From assembly GCA_030749235.1 (NCBI GenBank), contig JASMKM010000007.1:1-64000 (forward strand): DNA of 64,000 bases. Direction: 5' to 3'. Position 1 is the first letter of the stretch; every line of letters begins with the position of its first letter. This document shows positions 18,114 to 34,114 of the stretch, in pieces. The DNA is from Planctomycetota bacterium. GTDB taxonomy: Bacteria; Planctomycetota; UBA1135. The notes under the pieces were generated by a model that ran no database searches, was not told the DNA's origin, and saw nothing but the letters and a program-made list of their open reading frames with translations. The position numbers were made by a program, and so were the translations under genes.

Positions 18114-19265
18114 TCAGGCCTTATTCTTCTCCTTCTCCTTGTAGTAGAACTCGCCGTCGAGAATCGGCGTGGCAATCTTCACCATGAAGGTGAACAGCAG
18201 GCCGCCGATGCCAATGATGCCGATCGAGACCAGCAGTTCATTGACCGAAGGCACGTACTCGTAAATCTCACCGAGGGTATCGGGGGTCATGCCGGGGATT
18301 ACCATGCCCATGCTCTTCTCGATGTAGACCCCTAAGAAGATGAGCAGGCAACCGAGGTTCATCAGCACCACGTTCTCTCTAGACTTGCGTCGCAGGAACA
18401 GAATGAAGGCAGCGAAGGAACAACCGACTGCGAACCACATCCATGGCACCAAGGTGTCGTGGCCGTCGACGCCCGAGAACATGTAGTGCATATGCGTGAC
18501 ATGATGGGTATCCGAGTAGTACTCCTTGAAGACTTCCGCTCCCAGCAGGAAAAGATTGAAGCCCATGAAGTAGGCCATCAGTTCGGATATTTTCCACATG
18601 GCTTCCTGGCGGATTTTGAATTTGCTGAAGCGTTGCAGGATTTGCATAAGGACCAGCATCACCGCAGGACCGGAACAGAAGGCCGAGACGATGAAGCGCG
18701 GCGCCAGGATTGCTGAATTCCAATAAGGACGCGAGACCAGACCTGCATACAGGAAGGCTGTGACCGTATGAATCGCAATCGCTGCAGGAATAGAGAGCCA
18801 TACCAGCGGCATGAAGATGCGCCTGTTCGGTTCCTTGCGCTGGAACAGGCGGAACAACAGGTAGGTAGTGATGACGAAGTTCAGAATTAAGTATCCGTTC
18901 AACGCGATCACGTCCCATGCCAGCATCGAGTTCGGCACGTTGAGGATGCCGGGACCTGGAATCAGGTGCCAGAAGCGTTCGGGGCGGCCGATGTCGACCA
19001 TTACGAACAAGGCGCACATGGTGATTGCGGCGACCGCCAACAGTTCACCATAGACCACGATCTCTTTGATTGGCTTCCAGTGGTAGAGGTATGCAGGGAC
19101 AACCAAAGTCACAGCTGCCGCGGCCACGCCCACCAGGAAGGTGAAGTTGCCGATGTAGAAGCCCCACGAGACCTGGTCACGCATGCTGGTGGTCTTGAGG
19201 CCTTCCTCCAACTGAATGCCATAGGCCCATAAGCCTACTGCGGTACAGGCAAGAAGGAATCCCAC
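18114..19265 (-). CDS. NrfD/PsrC-family membrane protein (DsrP/HmeB-like), start uncertain (GTG)
   Basis: Multi-TM 383-aa ORF; YHWKPIKEIVVYGELLAVAAITMCALFVMVDIGRPERFWHLIPGPGILNVPNSMLAWDVIALNGY. Confidence 0.85.
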   Translation of the reverse strand: MGFLLACTAVGLWAYGIQLEEGLKTTSMRDQVSWGFYIGNFTFLVGVAAAAVTLVVPAYLYHWKPIKEIVVYGELLAVAAITMCALFVMVDIGRPERFWHLIPGPGILNVPNSMLAWDVIALNGYLILNFVITTYLLFRLFQRKEPNRRIFMPLVWLSIPAAIAIHTVTAFLYAGLVSRPYWNSAILAPRFIVSAFCSGPAVMLVLMQILQRFSKFKIRQEAMWKISELMAYFMGFNLFLLGAEVFKEYYSDTHHVTHMHYMFSGVDGHDTLVPWMWFAVGCSFAAFILFLRRKSRENVVLMNLGCLLIFLGVYIEKSMGMVIPGMTPDTLGEIYEYVPSVNELLVSIGIIGIGGLLFTFMVKIATPILDGEFYYKEKEKNKA

Positions 19266-19356
19266 CCAGCCGTTAAGAGAGAGCGGCTGGGGAAGTGCAC
19301 TAATTTAGTGCTATATTTTCTGTCACAAATGCTAGATTATTGCCACACAAAAGACG

Positions 19357-20502
19357 ATGGCACCGGAAATCCAGTTCGACGATCTCATCGAGCGACTCCA
19401 TGAGGACAGCTTCGATTCTTCGGCACCCGCGCTGATTGAACAGCTCAACGCGGCAGGCACCCACGTATTATTCGATTTTGAGCGCCTCGAGCCGCAAGCT
19501 CCTGTCAAAGATAGGTTTAGCTCGTTTCGCGACGAGGTAGCCCGGATTCCGACGATGGATCGCGTCAGCGAGTTGCAATTCGCGATGGGCCTGGAGTTGT
19601 TGTGGATGCGCCTTCAAGACGCTCGCAAGCGCGCTGGCTTCAGCCAAGAAGAGGTGGAACGCTACCCAGACATCAATGACACCAAATGCCTAAACTGCGG
19701 TCCGAGTGATCAGTTGAGTTGCTTCGGGTGTTCGCCGGCCACCTGCGACGTGCGCACCCGCGAGGAGCTGCGCGACCGCACCCATGATTTGATTGCCGCC
19801 CGCAACGAGATGGTCGAGCGCCACATGCATGTGGTCTTTCACCTGCTCGAGAAGTACCGCCACGTTTCAATTCCCAACGAGGATTTGGTCCAAGAGGCCA
19901 ATGAGTCGCTGTTTCGTGCAGTCGAGGGATTCGATTTCCGTCGTGGCTTCCGCTTCAAAACCTACGGCGCTTACTGGATTAACCAGGCCTTCTTGAATGC
20001 AATCTACAACCAGAGCCGCACCGTGCGCGTGCCGGCCTACATCCAGAAAGCCATGAAGAAGATTTCGCGTGTGATCGGCGATGTCGATGGTGGTGTGCAT
20101 AACATTGATGCGATCGCTGAGAAGGCTGGCGTGGACCGCAAGCTGGTCCTCTCCGCCATGGGGCGCAATCGCTTCACCTTGTCTCTGAATAAGGTGGTAG
20201 ACCAGAATGAAGGCAGTGCGATGGTCGAGATTATCGCCGGTCGCGACGAGGCCGAGAGCCCCGAGTTGGGCGAGAACTCAGCCATGACCAGCTACCTGGA
20301 GCATGCGGTCAAACGCCTCAGCGAGCGCGAGCAGGAAGTGATGCGCATGCGCTTCGGGCTGGGTGGCGTCGGCATCAAGACTTTGTCGGAAGTTGGCAGC
20401 AGCCTCGGCATCTCGTTGGAGCGTGTGCGGCAGATTCAACGAGCGGCGCTGGACAAGATTCGCGGTGGCGACTTCGGCGGTAAGCTGGAGCAGTTCGCAT
20501 AA
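19357..20502 (+). CDS. RNA polymerase sigma-70 family factor with cysteine-rich insert
   Basis: NEDLVQEANESLFRAVEGFDFRRGFRFKTYGAYWINQAFLNAI (region 2); LSEREQEVMRMRFGL...TLSEVGSSLGISLERVRQIQRAALDKIR (region 4); CLNCGPSDQLSCFGCSPATC insert. Confidence 0.95.
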   Translation: MAPEIQFDDLIERLHEDSFDSSAPALIEQLNAAGTHVLFDFERLEPQAPVKDRFSSFRDEVARIPTMDRVSELQFAMGLELLWMRLQDARKRAGFSQEEVERYPDINDTKCLNCGPSDQLSCFGCSPATCDVRTREELRDRTHDLIAARNEMVERHMHVVFHLLEKYRHVSIPNEDLVQEANESLFRAVEGFDFRRGFRFKTYGAYWINQAFLNAIYNQSRTVRVPAYIQKAMKKISRVIGDVDGGVHNIDAIAEKAGVDRKLVLSAMGRNRFTLSLNKVVDQNEGSAMVEIIAGRDEAESPELGENSAMTSYLEHAVKRLSEREQEVMRMRFGLGGVGIKTLSEVGSSLGISLERVRQIQRAALDKIRGGDFGGKLEQFA

Positions 20503-27159: not shown

Positions 27160-27580
27160 CGGTTGTCAGTGGTTGGCGTGCCTTTGGAAGCCACGCCTTG
27201 GAGCGCCGGGAATAGGGCGAAGCCCATGCGGATATCGAGCTTCGCACAAAAAAAACAAGCATTAAGGTATGTATTCTTGGAAAAATAAGGACAGTCCCTA
27301 TGCCGTAATCCTTGTCGCACCGGCAGTCCGGCATGGGCCATAGAGGCCCCAAACTGATTCAGGTTCAAGCCAGCTCCAAGATGAAATACAGCACCCAAAA
27401 ACGGCAAAGTGATGCCGTCGGCGAGGGAAAATAATAAACCCGAATCAGGGGTAGAAATTTTCACCTCCGGCTCGGAACTAGGCTTCCCTGAAGGCGACCG
27501 CATCGCTATCCTGTGCGCCACAAATGGGGAAGGTGGAACCCAAATTCCCACACCCCAGGAAGATCTCCCGCTTCCTCACA

Positions 27581-28231
27581 ATGAGTGACTACCATTTTCC
27601 CAGGTGGACGGACCGTGTTCGTCCAATCATGGGGTACGCTGCAATCATTGTCCCCATCTACTTGGTGGGGCTTATGACTTACGCATTTTCGGCCGACAAC
27701 CTCAACCGAGGTTACGCGCCGGAGCAGCCAATCCCCTTTAGTCATGCCCTTCACGCCGGTGAGCTTGGTGTGGATTGTCGCTATTGCCATAACACCGTCG
27801 AGACCGGTGCGATGGCGGCGCTGCCACCGACCTCCACCTGCATGAACTGCCACGAGCGCGTGCGCCCGGAGAGCCCCTTGCTGGCCCCGTTGCGCGAGAG
27901 CGCGGAGACTGGCGACCCAGTCGAATGGGTGCGTGTACATGACCTTCCTGAGTACGTCTACTTCAACCACAGCGCTCACTTGAGTGCTGGTGTCGGTTGC
28001 GTGGAGTGCCACGGCCGTGTTGATCAGATGGACGTGGTTCGCCAGGAAGAAAACCTCTCGATGGGGTGGTGCCTCGAATGCCACCGCGATCCGGCTCCGC
28101 GCCTACGTCCTACCGATCACATCACTGATCTCGGCTGGAACCCCACCGAGAACCGCGAAGTCCTCGGTCAGCGCATCATGGCCGAGAAGAACATCCACCC
28201 ACGTGAGGATTGCTCCACCTGTCACCGATGA
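27581..28231 (+). CDS. actA: alternative complex III pentahaem cytochrome c subunit ActA
   Basis: Five CxxCH motifs (CRYCH, CMNCH, CVECH, CLECH, CSTCH), N-terminal TM; followed by ActB-F-like genes. Confidence 0.9.
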   Translation: MSDYHFPRWTDRVRPIMGYAAIIVPIYLVGLMTYAFSADNLNRGYAPEQPIPFSHALHAGELGVDCRYCHNTVETGAMAALPPTSTCMNCHERVRPESPLLAPLRESAETGDPVEWVRVHDLPEYVYFNHSAHLSAGVGCVECHGRVDQMDVVRQEENLSMGWCLECHRDPAPRLRPTDHITDLGWNPTENREVLGQRIMAEKNIHPREDCSTCHR

Positions 28232-31216
28232 AACGATCCGAATCAACCAAGCGCTACTGGCGTAGTATCCACGACCTCGAGCAGACGCCGGAATTCGCGG
28301 CTGCGCAGAACAACGAGTTCGCTGGGCAGATCGACCAGGAGTGGACCACCACCTCGCGTCGCCGCTTCATCCAGCTGATGGGTGCTTCGGTCGCCTTGGC
28401 AACTGCGACCAGCTGCCGTTGGCAGGAAGAGAAGCTACTGCCGTTGAACGACCGCAACCCAGGCTTGACTCCGGGCAGCCCGAAGAACTTCTCGAGCATT
28501 CTCGATTCCGACGGCTTCGCCATCGGCGTCAAGGTCACAAGCTTCGACGGCCGCCCCACCAAGATCGAAGGTAACCCGCTGCACCCTGAATCGCTCGGTG
28601 CCACCTCGACCTACGCGCAAGCTGCAACTCTCGGCCTCTACGACCCAGACCGTAGCCGCACCGTGATTCATCACGATGGCAGCAACGCCGTGGACAAGAC
28701 CGCCGAAGATTTGGCAGCACTCACTGCAGGAATCGCCGCCAAGAAGGGAGCAGGTAGCGGAGCCGTCGCAGTCCTAGCCGAACCGAGCGCGTCGCCATCG
28801 ATGTTGCGCCTGAAGGAGTCCTTCATGAAGGCCTTCCCTCGAGCCACGTGGGTGGACTACTCTCCGATTGCGCGCGACAACGAGGTTGCCGGCTGCAAGA
28901 TGGCCTTCGCCTTGAATGCGCGTCCTTACTACCGGATGAGCGATGCAAAGATCATCGTCGCGCTCGACGATGACTTCCTCTACGAGGGTCCATCGGCACT
29001 GCGCCTGATGCGTGAAGTCACCGCGCGTCGCAAGCCTGAGGCTGGCTGGATGAACCGCATCTACTCGGTCGAGGCCAACTACTCCTTGACCGGCGGATTC
29101 GCCGACCATCGCCTGCCGTTGCGCAGCTCCGAGATCGGCGCCTTTGTTACGGCCTTGCGCGCCAAGATCTCCGGTGGCACGGCACCGACCCTGTCGGCCA
29201 AGGGTGCGGATGATTTCCTCACCGCGATGGCTTCGGATCTGAAAGCCCATAAGGGAGAGTGCATCATCACTTGTGGTCCTGGCCAGCCTGCCGCAGTCCA
29301 CGCCCACGTGCATGCGCTCAACATGGAGCTAGGCGCCAGCGGCAAGACGGTCGACTACTACGAGGCTACTGCTAACGGCTCGGGCCTGGATGCGGTCAAG
29401 GATTTGGTAGGTAAGATGAACGCCGGCACCGTCACCGATTTGGTAATCCTTGGCGGTAACCCTGTCTACGACATGCCTGCTGACCTGGCTTTCGGCGACG
29501 CCCTCGACAAGGTCGCCAACAGTGTCCGCCTCGGCCAGTACCTCGACGAGACTTCGGTCAAGTGCACCTGGCATGTGCCGCAGGCCCATGAGTTAGAGCT
29601 CTGGACCGATGGCGCAGCCCCGGAAGGCACCGTGTCGATCGGCCAGCCGCTGATCAACCCCTTGTGGGATGGCCTGGGCACCACCGAGGTGCTGTCGCAG
29701 CTGCTCGGCGAGTCGAAGAACTCAATGGAGATCGTCAAGCAGACTTCCGGTCTCGGTTCGACCGCTTGGCGCAAGGCGCTGCACGATGGCATCGTCGCGG
29801 GCACAGGTGCGAAACCTTACCGCGTGAAGTTGCGTGAGCTACCGAAACTCGCAACGCCGATGGAAGGTCTGGAGCTGCGCTTCATTCCTCACTTCGCATT
29901 GCGCGATGGTCGGTACGCCAACCTCGGTTGGCTGCAGGAGCTGCCCGACCCGATGACTAAGTTGACTTGGGACAACGCCGCGCTGATTTCCTTTGCCACC
30001 GCTGAACGTCTCGGTGTCCAGCATGAGTCGATGGTCGAGCTGACCGTCGGCGGTCGCAAGCTGGAGGTCGCTGCTTACCTGATGCCAGGCCACGCGGATG
30101 ATTCCATTACCTTGGCGCTCGGCTTTGGTCGCACCGACGGCGGTCACGTCGCCGGCCTAAGCGACGACGACGTCGAGGCGGTCGGTTTCGATAGCTACAA
30201 GCTGCGTGGTTCCGATGCCATGGATGTGGCAGCCGTCAGCTTGGCGACCACCAATAAGACCTACCTCCTGGCGACGACCCAAGACCACTTTGCGATGGAC
30301 GACATCGGCACCAAGGGTAGCCAGAGTCGTCTGCCGAACCTAGTCAAGGAGAACACGCTTGACGGTTACGAGCATGACAAGACCTTCGCCAAGCACGCTG
30401 CAGACTTCTGGGGCGACGAGAAGACCTTGTGGCAGGAACTCGATTCACAGAAGGACACCAACCACAAATGGGGGATGGCTATCGACCTGAGTTCGTGCAC
30501 CGGCTGCGGCAGCTGCACCGTCGCTTGCCAATCGGAGAACAACATCTCCGTGGTCGGCAAGGAGCAGGTGTTGCGCGGCCGCGAGATGGCTTGGATTCGC
30601 CTCGACCGCTACTTCCTTGGAGACGCGGAGAACCCAAAGGCAATCAACCAGCCCATCAACTGTGCGCACTGCGAACTCGCTCCATGCGAATCGGTGTGCC
30701 CGGTAGCGGCGACCACCCACAGCGAGGAAGGCCTCAACGACATGGTCTACAACCGCTGCATCGGTACTCGGTACTGCGCGAACAACTGTCCTTATAAGGT
30801 CCGTCGCTTCAACTACTTCAACTTCAACAAGGATGCTGCCCAGCCGGGCAACGAGGTGTTGAAGATGGCCGCCAACCCGGATGTCACGGTACGCGACCGC
30901 GGAGTCATGGAGAAGTGCACCTTCTGCGTACAGCGCATCGAGCGCGTCCGTATCGACAGTCGCAACGAGGATCGCGACACCTTCATCGAAGATGGCGCCA
31001 TCAAGGTCGCATGCGAGCAGGCTTGCCCTGCCGATGCGATCGTCTTCGGCGACCTGCTCGACGACGACAGCCGCGTGCTGAAGGCCCAGTCCCAGGACCG
31101 TGCCTACAAGCTGCTGGTTGAACTCAACAACAAACCACGGATCAGTTTCCTGGCTCGGATCCGTAACCCGCATCCATCCCTAGAGGCTCACGAAGCCGCT
31201 GAGGAGGTCGTCTCCC

Positions 31217-31224
<8 letters not shown>
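28228..31224 (+). CDS. actB: alternative complex III molybdopterin oxidoreductase-like/Fe-S subunit ActB
   Basis: [103 protein letters not shown]. Confidence 0.95.
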
Positions 31225-32611
<1,387 letters not shown>

Positions 32612-32623
32612 GAGGGCGAAACG

Positions 32624-34114
32624 ATGACCAACGACAACAACTTCTACGGTCTGCTGGCTGAGTTCGAGGATCCGACCGCCCTCTGTAAGGGTGCGGAACG
32701 GGTTCGAGACGCCGGCTATAAGCACTGGGACTGCCACTCGCCGTTCCCGGTCCACGGCCTCGATGATTGCATGGGCGTCAAGTTCACACGCCTGCCATGG
32801 ATTGTGCTGACGATGGGCCTCATCGGCTTGTTCTCCGGCATAGCCTTGCAGTGGTGGACCAACGCCGTTGACTACCCTTACGACATTTCCGGTAAGCCGG
32901 TCTGGTCGTTGCCCGCGAACATCCCGGTTATCTTTGAGGTCACCGTGTTGTTCTCGGCATTCACTGCCTTCTTCGCGATGTGGGGCATCAACGGCTTACC
33001 CCGTTGGTACCACCCGCTGCTTCGCAAGAAGAGCTTTGCCAAAGCCACCGACGACGGTTTTTTCATCTCGATCGAGGCCAAGGATCCGAGCTTCGCTCTT
33101 GAGCGTACCGGCGACTTCCTGAATACCATCGGCGCGAAGAGGGTCGAGGAGGTGCGCGAGGCCGATGAGCCCACCAACTTGCCTGGAAACATCAAGGCCA
33201 AGTTGTGGATCACTGCTGGTGTCATGCTAATCCCGGTCGGCATGGTCTACCAGACTTGGGATTCCACTACGACCGAGCCACGCGTGCACCTCGTCAAGGA
33301 CATGGACAAGCAAGATCGCTTCCGTTCCCAAGGCGAGACTTCCATGTTTGCGGATGGTCGCATGTCGCGCCCGCAGATCGAAGGCACAGTTGCCGAGGGT
33401 CAGTTCTTCGAGGACATGTCCTTCGTGACCGGTAAGGATGGTGGCAACTACGTCACCGCCATGCCGGCCTCGATCACCGTCGACGAGAAGTTTCTGGCTG
33501 AAGGCAAGAAGAACTTCGATATCTTCTGTGGGCTTTGCCACGGCGCCAATGGTGCTGGCAACAGCAAGATCCATGAACGCGCCATGATGCTGGCTGCGCA
33601 GGGCGAGGCGATTTGGGTACAGCCCACCGACTTGACTGGCGTGCGCATCATGGACATGGCCGATGGTCAAATCTTCGAGACCATCAGTAACGGTCTCAAC
33701 ACTATGCCTGCTTACGCCGCACAAATCTCTACGGAGGAGCGTTGGGCGATCATCGCCTACATGCGCGCCTTGCAGGAGGAGTATGGCGATGCAGGTCCGA
33801 GTGCCGATGAGCTTGCCAAAATGACTCCGGTCGAGCGCGGCGATTTGGTCTTCAACCAGCAAGGTTGCATGGCTTGTCACACCACGAACGGTACACCGCT
33901 GGTCGGTCCTACCTTTAAGGGTTACGTAGGCAGCGACATCAAGCTGACTACCGGCGAGACAGTAAAGGGCGACCTTGCCTACCTAACCGAATCCTTGCGC
34001 GATCCGCTCGCGAAGACACGTGAAGGTTCCATCCCAGGTGCGATGGTCGCGTACCCGAACATCACCGACGAACAGATCTCCGATCTCTTCGAGTACCTAA
34101 GCACTTTGAAGTAG
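32624..34114 (+). CDS. fused alternative complex III ActD (DUF3341-like) plus ActE-like cytochrome c protein
   Basis: N-terminus NNFYGLLAEFEDPTALCKGAERVRDAGYKHWDCHSPFPVHGLDD with TMs; C-terminus with two haem motifs CGLCH and CMACH. Confidence 0.88.
   Translation: MTNDNNFYGLLAEFEDPTALCKGAERVRDAGYKHWDCHSPFPVHGLDDCMGVKFTRLPWIVLTMGLIGLFSGIALQWWTNAVDYPYDISGKPVWSLPANIPVIFEVTVLFSAFTAFFAMWGINGLPRWYHPLLRKKSFAKATDDGFFISIEAKDPSFALERTGDFLNTIGAKRVEEVREADEPTNLPGNIKAKLWITAGVMLIPVGMVYQTWDSTTTEPRVHLVKDMDKQDRFRSQGETSMFADGRMSRPQIEGTVAEGQFFEDMSFVTGKDGGNYVTAMPASITVDEKFLAEGKKNFDIFCGLCHGANGAGNSKIHERAMMLAAQGEAIWVQPTDLTGVRIMDMADGQIFETISNGLNTMPAYAAQISTEERWAIIAYMRALQEEYGDAGPSADELAKMTPVERGDLVFNQQGCMACHTTNGTPLVGPTFKGYVGSDIKLTTGETVKGDLAYLTESLRDPLAKTREGSIPGAMVAYPNITDEQISDLFEYLSTLK

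Follow-up and report, generated by a model that had tools for sequence, protein, structure and literature searches.

Positions 19357-20502 (+) of the window, as the whole 64,000-nucleotide stretch of DNA analysed here is called, encode a 381-aa alternative sigma factor of the sigma-70 family. A conserved, putatively metal-binding block of four cysteines lies in its linker between regions 1.2 and 2.1, and the gene may be repressed by an Rrf2 regulator of the IscR/SufR type. The chances that this reading is correct as a whole are considered to be about even. Its basis in sequence covers the identity of the sigma factor, the conserved cysteine block and a palindrome shared with the promoters of rrf2-iscS operons.

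The sigma protein and its class

The gene was identified by its open reading frame, by Pfam and PDB matches and by comparison with 20 orthologues from the same family of Planctomycetota. The assignment to sigma-70 made in the original prediction was substantiated by profile searches: region 2 (residues 152-221, 19810-20019 (+); Pfam PF04542, E 9e-13) and region 4 (residues 318-369, 20308-20463 (+); Pfam PF04545, E 1.2e-15) both exceed the Pfam gathering scores. Region 3 is sub-threshold in the window protein (20.9 bits, against a Pfam cut-off of 25.3); 15 of 17 relatives have a Pfam match to it when E values up to 10 are admitted. No Pfam call was obtained for region 1.2 in the window protein; a region-1.2-like segment at about residues 57-93 (19525-19635 (+)) was located by homologue alignment and by the AF2 helices 55-62 and 69-93. 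In a PDB search, residues 138-381 display clear similarity to the structures of SigA, SigB, RpoS and RpoD. The N-terminal domain is colinear with region 1.1 of RpoD, at an hhalign probability below 5%, which is not significant.

The protein had originally been viewed in the frame of housekeeping sigma factors, and this part of the prediction was abandoned. The window genome, a draft of 2.41 Mb that is 90% complete, encodes a separate RpoD, in a frame of 627 aa, together with two more sigma-70-family proteins. The residues of the window sigma were compared with E. coli RpoD at the positions by which a primary sigma reads the -10, extended -10 and -35 elements. W433, T440, R441, H455, E458 and R584 (E. 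coli RpoD numbering) are replaced by Y, L, N, Y, K and L, respectively, while W434, Q437, E585 and R588 are kept; the RpoD of the same genome retains every residue that the window sigma has changed. The gene is missing from several family genomes and from all three genomes of genus g10, and in another family genome (G012) only a region-4 remnant is present; these drafts are 73-90% complete, and single absences of the sigma are weak evidence. Because of the separate RpoD, the altered promoter-reading residues and the loss of the gene in some relatives, identity with a group 1 (primary) RpoD/SigA factor was rejected, and the 381-aa protein is classified as an alternative sigma.

Two other types of protein were considered. 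The protein does not fall within the CorE-type ECF sigma factors, as region-1.2-like and region-3-like parts are present and no cysteine occurs after residue 130. Neither the H-x3-C-x2-C motif of the ZAS zinc anti-sigma domain nor a Pfam match to it was detected in the window sigma. A second, related sigma paralogue occurs in eight family genomes (L064-L071), and is devoid of both the cysteine block and the palindrome described below.

The cysteine block

The sequence CLNCGPSDQLSCFGCSPATC, encoded by positions 19687-19746 (+), corresponds to residues 111-130 and includes Cys 111, 114, 122, 125 and 130. These are the only cysteines of the protein, and the probability that five random cysteines fall within 20 of 381 residues is about 2e-5. 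The predicted placement of the cluster between the N-terminal region and region 2 was confirmed by the ORF translation, by alignments and by AF2 helices (55-93 and 132-155): the region-1.2-like segment lies on the N-terminal side of the block and the region 2.1 helix on its C-terminal side.

The expectation that all five cysteines are conserved as a block was borne out for four of them, but not for the fifth. The four-cysteine core, C-x2-C-x7-C-x2-C (residues 111-125, 19687-19731 (+)), is complete in 15 of the 20 family orthologues, with identical spacing, whereas the fifth cysteine (residue 130, 19744-19746 (+)) is present in only six members, namely the window protein and its five nearest relatives, which form the window's own clade. 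Across the family orthologues the block is nearly all-or-none: one protein (L017) has three cysteines, having lost the third, and four (L020, L021, L022 and L024) are missing the whole block. Loci L005-L022 and L034-L050 come from largely the same genomes, represented in two collections, and were counted once. The family sigma factors form a single clade (SH-aLRT 99), beside clades of other families. On this tree one change accounts for the fifth cysteine and three changes for the block, whose history, as reconstructed from the sequences, would fit one gain and two losses.

The complete core is retained down to about 48% identity and across many genera of the family. In a 14-row alignment (A3), the invariant columns of the insert are the four cysteines, one proline and one arginine, while many other columns have a pairwise identity of 10-30%; moreover, the cysteine codons differ synonymously between close relatives. 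This invariance amid drifting residues, maintained through synonymous change and lost in a nearly all-or-none fashion, argues against the view that the cluster is a neutral, lineage-specific linker devoid of any ligand. Such a view would agree with the variability of the linker in the wider subfamily, with the different cysteines found there in other lineages and with the low AF2 confidence over this segment, and is considered highly improbable.

Outside the family, the core was not found in the sequences retrieved, which comprised orthologues belonging to the order's other families, and related sigma factors of further families in the phylum, sampled from one class and from 392 genomes of the phylum. 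In two f7 proteins (L094 and L096) the linker is Cys-rich in a different way, and a C-x6-C pair occupies the same place in many f8 proteins. Since these families have other patterns, cysteines may have been acquired repeatedly in the region 1.2-2.1 linker.

The AF2 model, built with 17 sequences and without metals, has a mean pLDDT of 75.7, decreasing to about 60 over the cysteine block, and a fragment model of the insert reaches a similar confidence there. Comparison of the insert with solved Zn or Fe-S folds, by profile search and by Foldseek of the fragment model, gave nothing significant, and Pfam zinc-finger families produced isolated matches only, at E 0.05 and in single relatives. The conserved block suggests a putative metal- or Fe-S-binding site, for which either Zn or an Fe-S cluster may be the ligand, and which might have a sensing function.

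A possible, though not the favoured, explanation is that the block is a structural zinc knuckle, which would shape the linker, for example for a contact with beta-prime or DNA, without any sensing, Rrf2 control being a separate layer. The C-x2-C-x7-C-x2-C pattern with its Pro/Gly turns does resemble a small Zn knuckle, its spacing is fixed across many genera of the family, and the fifth cysteine, a potential switch, is restricted to one clade. However, two sub-clades have lost the block and yet keep the sigma, which indicates that the block is dispensable for the fold; also, a purely structural role takes no account of the location of the gene behind a putative operator of the Fe-S type.

Palindrome, Rrf2 regulators and proposed control

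The palindrome GCACTAATTTAGTGC is located upstream of the sigma gene, at positions 19297-19311, and is regarded as a putative operator for an IscR/SufR-like Rrf2 protein, given its recurrence upstream of family sigma genes and its similarity to rrf2-iscS sites. By inspection, it is abutted by TATATT (19312-19317 (+)), a putative -10 hexamer, in the arrangement TGC-TATATT, the same layout being seen at rrf2 promoters. Of the 19 family orthologues for which upstream sequence is available, 13 carry the palindrome with 0-2 mismatches within 160 nt of the gene, and another has it with 3 mismatches; a level of at most 2 mismatches is reached by 0.05% of shuffled regions. For 56 other sigma genes, from other families, paralogues and other members of the phylum, the best upstream match has at least 5 mismatches. 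In one variant, GCACCAATTTGGTGC, found at L034, both half-sites are changed and the symmetry is preserved. The distribution of the palindrome does not entirely match that of the cysteine block: two orthologues have the palindrome only, and two or three have the block without a clear palindrome.

Pattern searches of 26 family genomes, allowing at most 1 mismatch, identified nine places, compared with none for a reversed-pattern control. Six of them are upstream of the sigma gene, one precedes the sigma remnant of G012, one belongs to the rrf2-iscS locus of G011 and one falls inside a coding gene. The G012 remnant (L128, contig 59) consists of about 82 aa, includes region 4 only and is preceded by a long perfect palindrome surrounding GCACTAAWTTAGTGC. 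Viral contigs were also scanned and yielded 35 exact palindrome matches, probably due to chance. Between palindrome and start codon, the sequence TTTTCTGTCACANATGNTANATT (about 19316-19340 of the window) hardly differs among the three closest genomes, including those of L034 and L035, and is a possible second regulatory site.

The G011 palindrome, with at most 1 mismatch, directly precedes an Rrf2 regulator gene, and iscS comes next. The encoded regulator matches the Rrf2 superfamily and contains the pattern C-x5-C-x5-C; its scores against the SUF-regulator and IscR models are weaker and stay under the curated cut-offs. An rrf2 gene of this type is present in all 26 family genomes. The best palindrome match, with 0-5 mismatches, is located 26-30 nt before its start in 24 of the 26, and sites with 3 mismatches or fewer were found in 16. 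The rrf2 site of the window genome itself (contig 90) is GCACTAAATAGATGC, a degenerate version with 3 mismatches; here too, iscS follows. As judged by inspection, the palindrome fills the gap between TTGAAA-like and TATWTT-like hexamers in several rrf2 promoters, a layout such as would be expected for repression by occlusion.

Palindromes at rrf2-iscS were also found in several genomes of f8, f7 and f6, while placement before the sigma gene was seen in the family only; the similar sites in these other families of the order indicate that the palindrome predates the family. The palindrome was also considered as the sigma's own promoter, an idea discarded because a similar rrf2 site persists in genomes that lack the sigma. 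Because the palindrome of the sigma gene resembles those located about 27 nt ahead of rrf2-iscS operons, the gene is most likely a member of an Rrf2 iron-sulfur regulon, in which binding of the regulator is putative. The occurrence of a palindrome common to rrf2-iscS promoters independently supports a probable redox or Fe-S connection of the sigma.

The following scheme is proposed; it infers Rrf2 binding, the sense of regulation, the nature of the ligand and any sensing. On the model of E. coli IscR, cluster-loaded Rrf2 would occupy GCACTAAWTTAGTGC and block the sigma promoter as long as the Fe-S supply is adequate. Once clusters become scarce or oxidised, it would depart, both iscS and the sigma would be made, and the sigma would then redirect RNA polymerase. 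The cysteine block, by binding an Fe-S cluster or Zn, would subject the sigma to a further check, at the level of the protein, and, adjoining the core-binding region 2, could modulate holoenzyme formation. In one form of the scheme, judged rather unlikely, the Rrf2-controlled sigma would hold, in its region 1.2-2.1 linker, an Fe-S cluster acting as a switch, and Fe-S status would be read both at the gene and in the holoenzyme.

The reduced [2Fe-2S] form of E. coli IscR represses type 1 sites, and releases them upon cluster oxidation (PMC12594620). As for IscR of E. coli and Rhodobacter sphaeroides, the Planctomycetota rrf2 gene is found beside iscS, and the putative operator overlaps its promoters (PMC12594620, PMC4618611); the protein has three spaced cysteines, as in most IscR. 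Unlike IscR, it scores under the curated IscR threshold, its proposed operator is GCACTAAWTTAGTGC and the sigma gene is among its probable targets.

Sigma factors with metal-responsive cysteines are known from other classes. CorE and CorE2 (ECF238, formerly ECF44) of Myxococcus xanthus are metal-sensing sigma factors endowed with a Cys-rich element of their own (PMC8999054), and the window sigma is similar in carrying such an element, with a putative metal role. CorE, however, is a two-domain ECF factor whose Cys-rich domain is C-terminal and which has a CxC motif between sigma2 and sigma4, whereas the window sigma comprises regions 1.2-2-3-4 and has its block between 1.2 and 2.1. In OrbS, the iron-starvation ECF sigma of Burkholderia cenocepacia, one signal acts through Fur on the gene and through cysteines on the sigma (PMC9023288). 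A similar two-layer control, by a metalloregulator and by sigma cysteines, is proposed here, the protein-level layer being presumptive; the difference is that OrbS, an ECF factor, relies on C-terminal cysteines, Fe(II) and Fur, and the window system on Rrf2. The insert sits where group 1 sigma factors have their non-conserved region (NCR), between regions 1.2 and 2.1 (PMC4598750), but it is about 30 residues long, has a conserved four-cysteine core and belongs to an alternative sigma.

No description of such a sigma was found in the open-access literature, to which the search was confined. If the proposal is true, it would define a new architecture, in which a larger, region 1.2-containing sigma carries a four-cysteine block beside the core-binding domain and is included in a probable Fe-S-type regulon; in a lineage that has received little study, promoter choice would thereby be tied to Fe-S status. 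The shared operator and the conserved cysteine block make the idea directly testable.

Gene neighbourhood

The gene order mutS - sigma - lipA/trp - pdhA - pdhB is common to much of the family; in many relatives lipA, pdhA and pdhB are located close behind the sigma gene, on the same strand. LipA is a radical-SAM Fe-S enzyme. This arrangement would agree with a reading in which the palindrome serves a sigma-lipA-pdhAB operon, for the production of lipoyl synthase and PDH, while the sigma, a mere passenger, has a cysteine block unrelated to Fe-S. Three observations make it improbable. At L034, L036 and L037, where trp genes follow and lipA is outside the stretch examined, the sigma gene still has its palindrome; no other site with at most 1 mismatch exists in G003 and G004; and an f8 genome (G042) has the order sigma - lipA - pdhA - pdhB without the palindrome. 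Control of the sigma gene itself by Rrf2 is the reading preferred here.

On the other side of the operator, a divergent NrfD/DsrP-like gene (18114-19265 (-); Pfam NrfD, E 1.6e-41; NCBIfam DsrP) is the neighbour of the sigma gene, though no required part of the system. It appears N-terminally shortened, its first usable start being a GTG at 19265. At L034 and L035 the corresponding gene is full-length, and ferredoxin-like and multiheme cytochrome genes, which the window lacks, come after it in the direction of the sigma. The lack of these genes and the shortening of the NrfD/DsrP-like gene suggest that sequence beside the operator has been deleted, or misassembled, in the window. A functional tie between the sigma and the NrfD/cytochrome genes was considered and set aside as weak, as they are adjacent in few loci only, and in two arrangements. 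Further downstream in the window, an alternative complex III-like cluster at about 27524-34114 (+) encodes cytochrome c7, Fe-S, NrfD and ActD domains.
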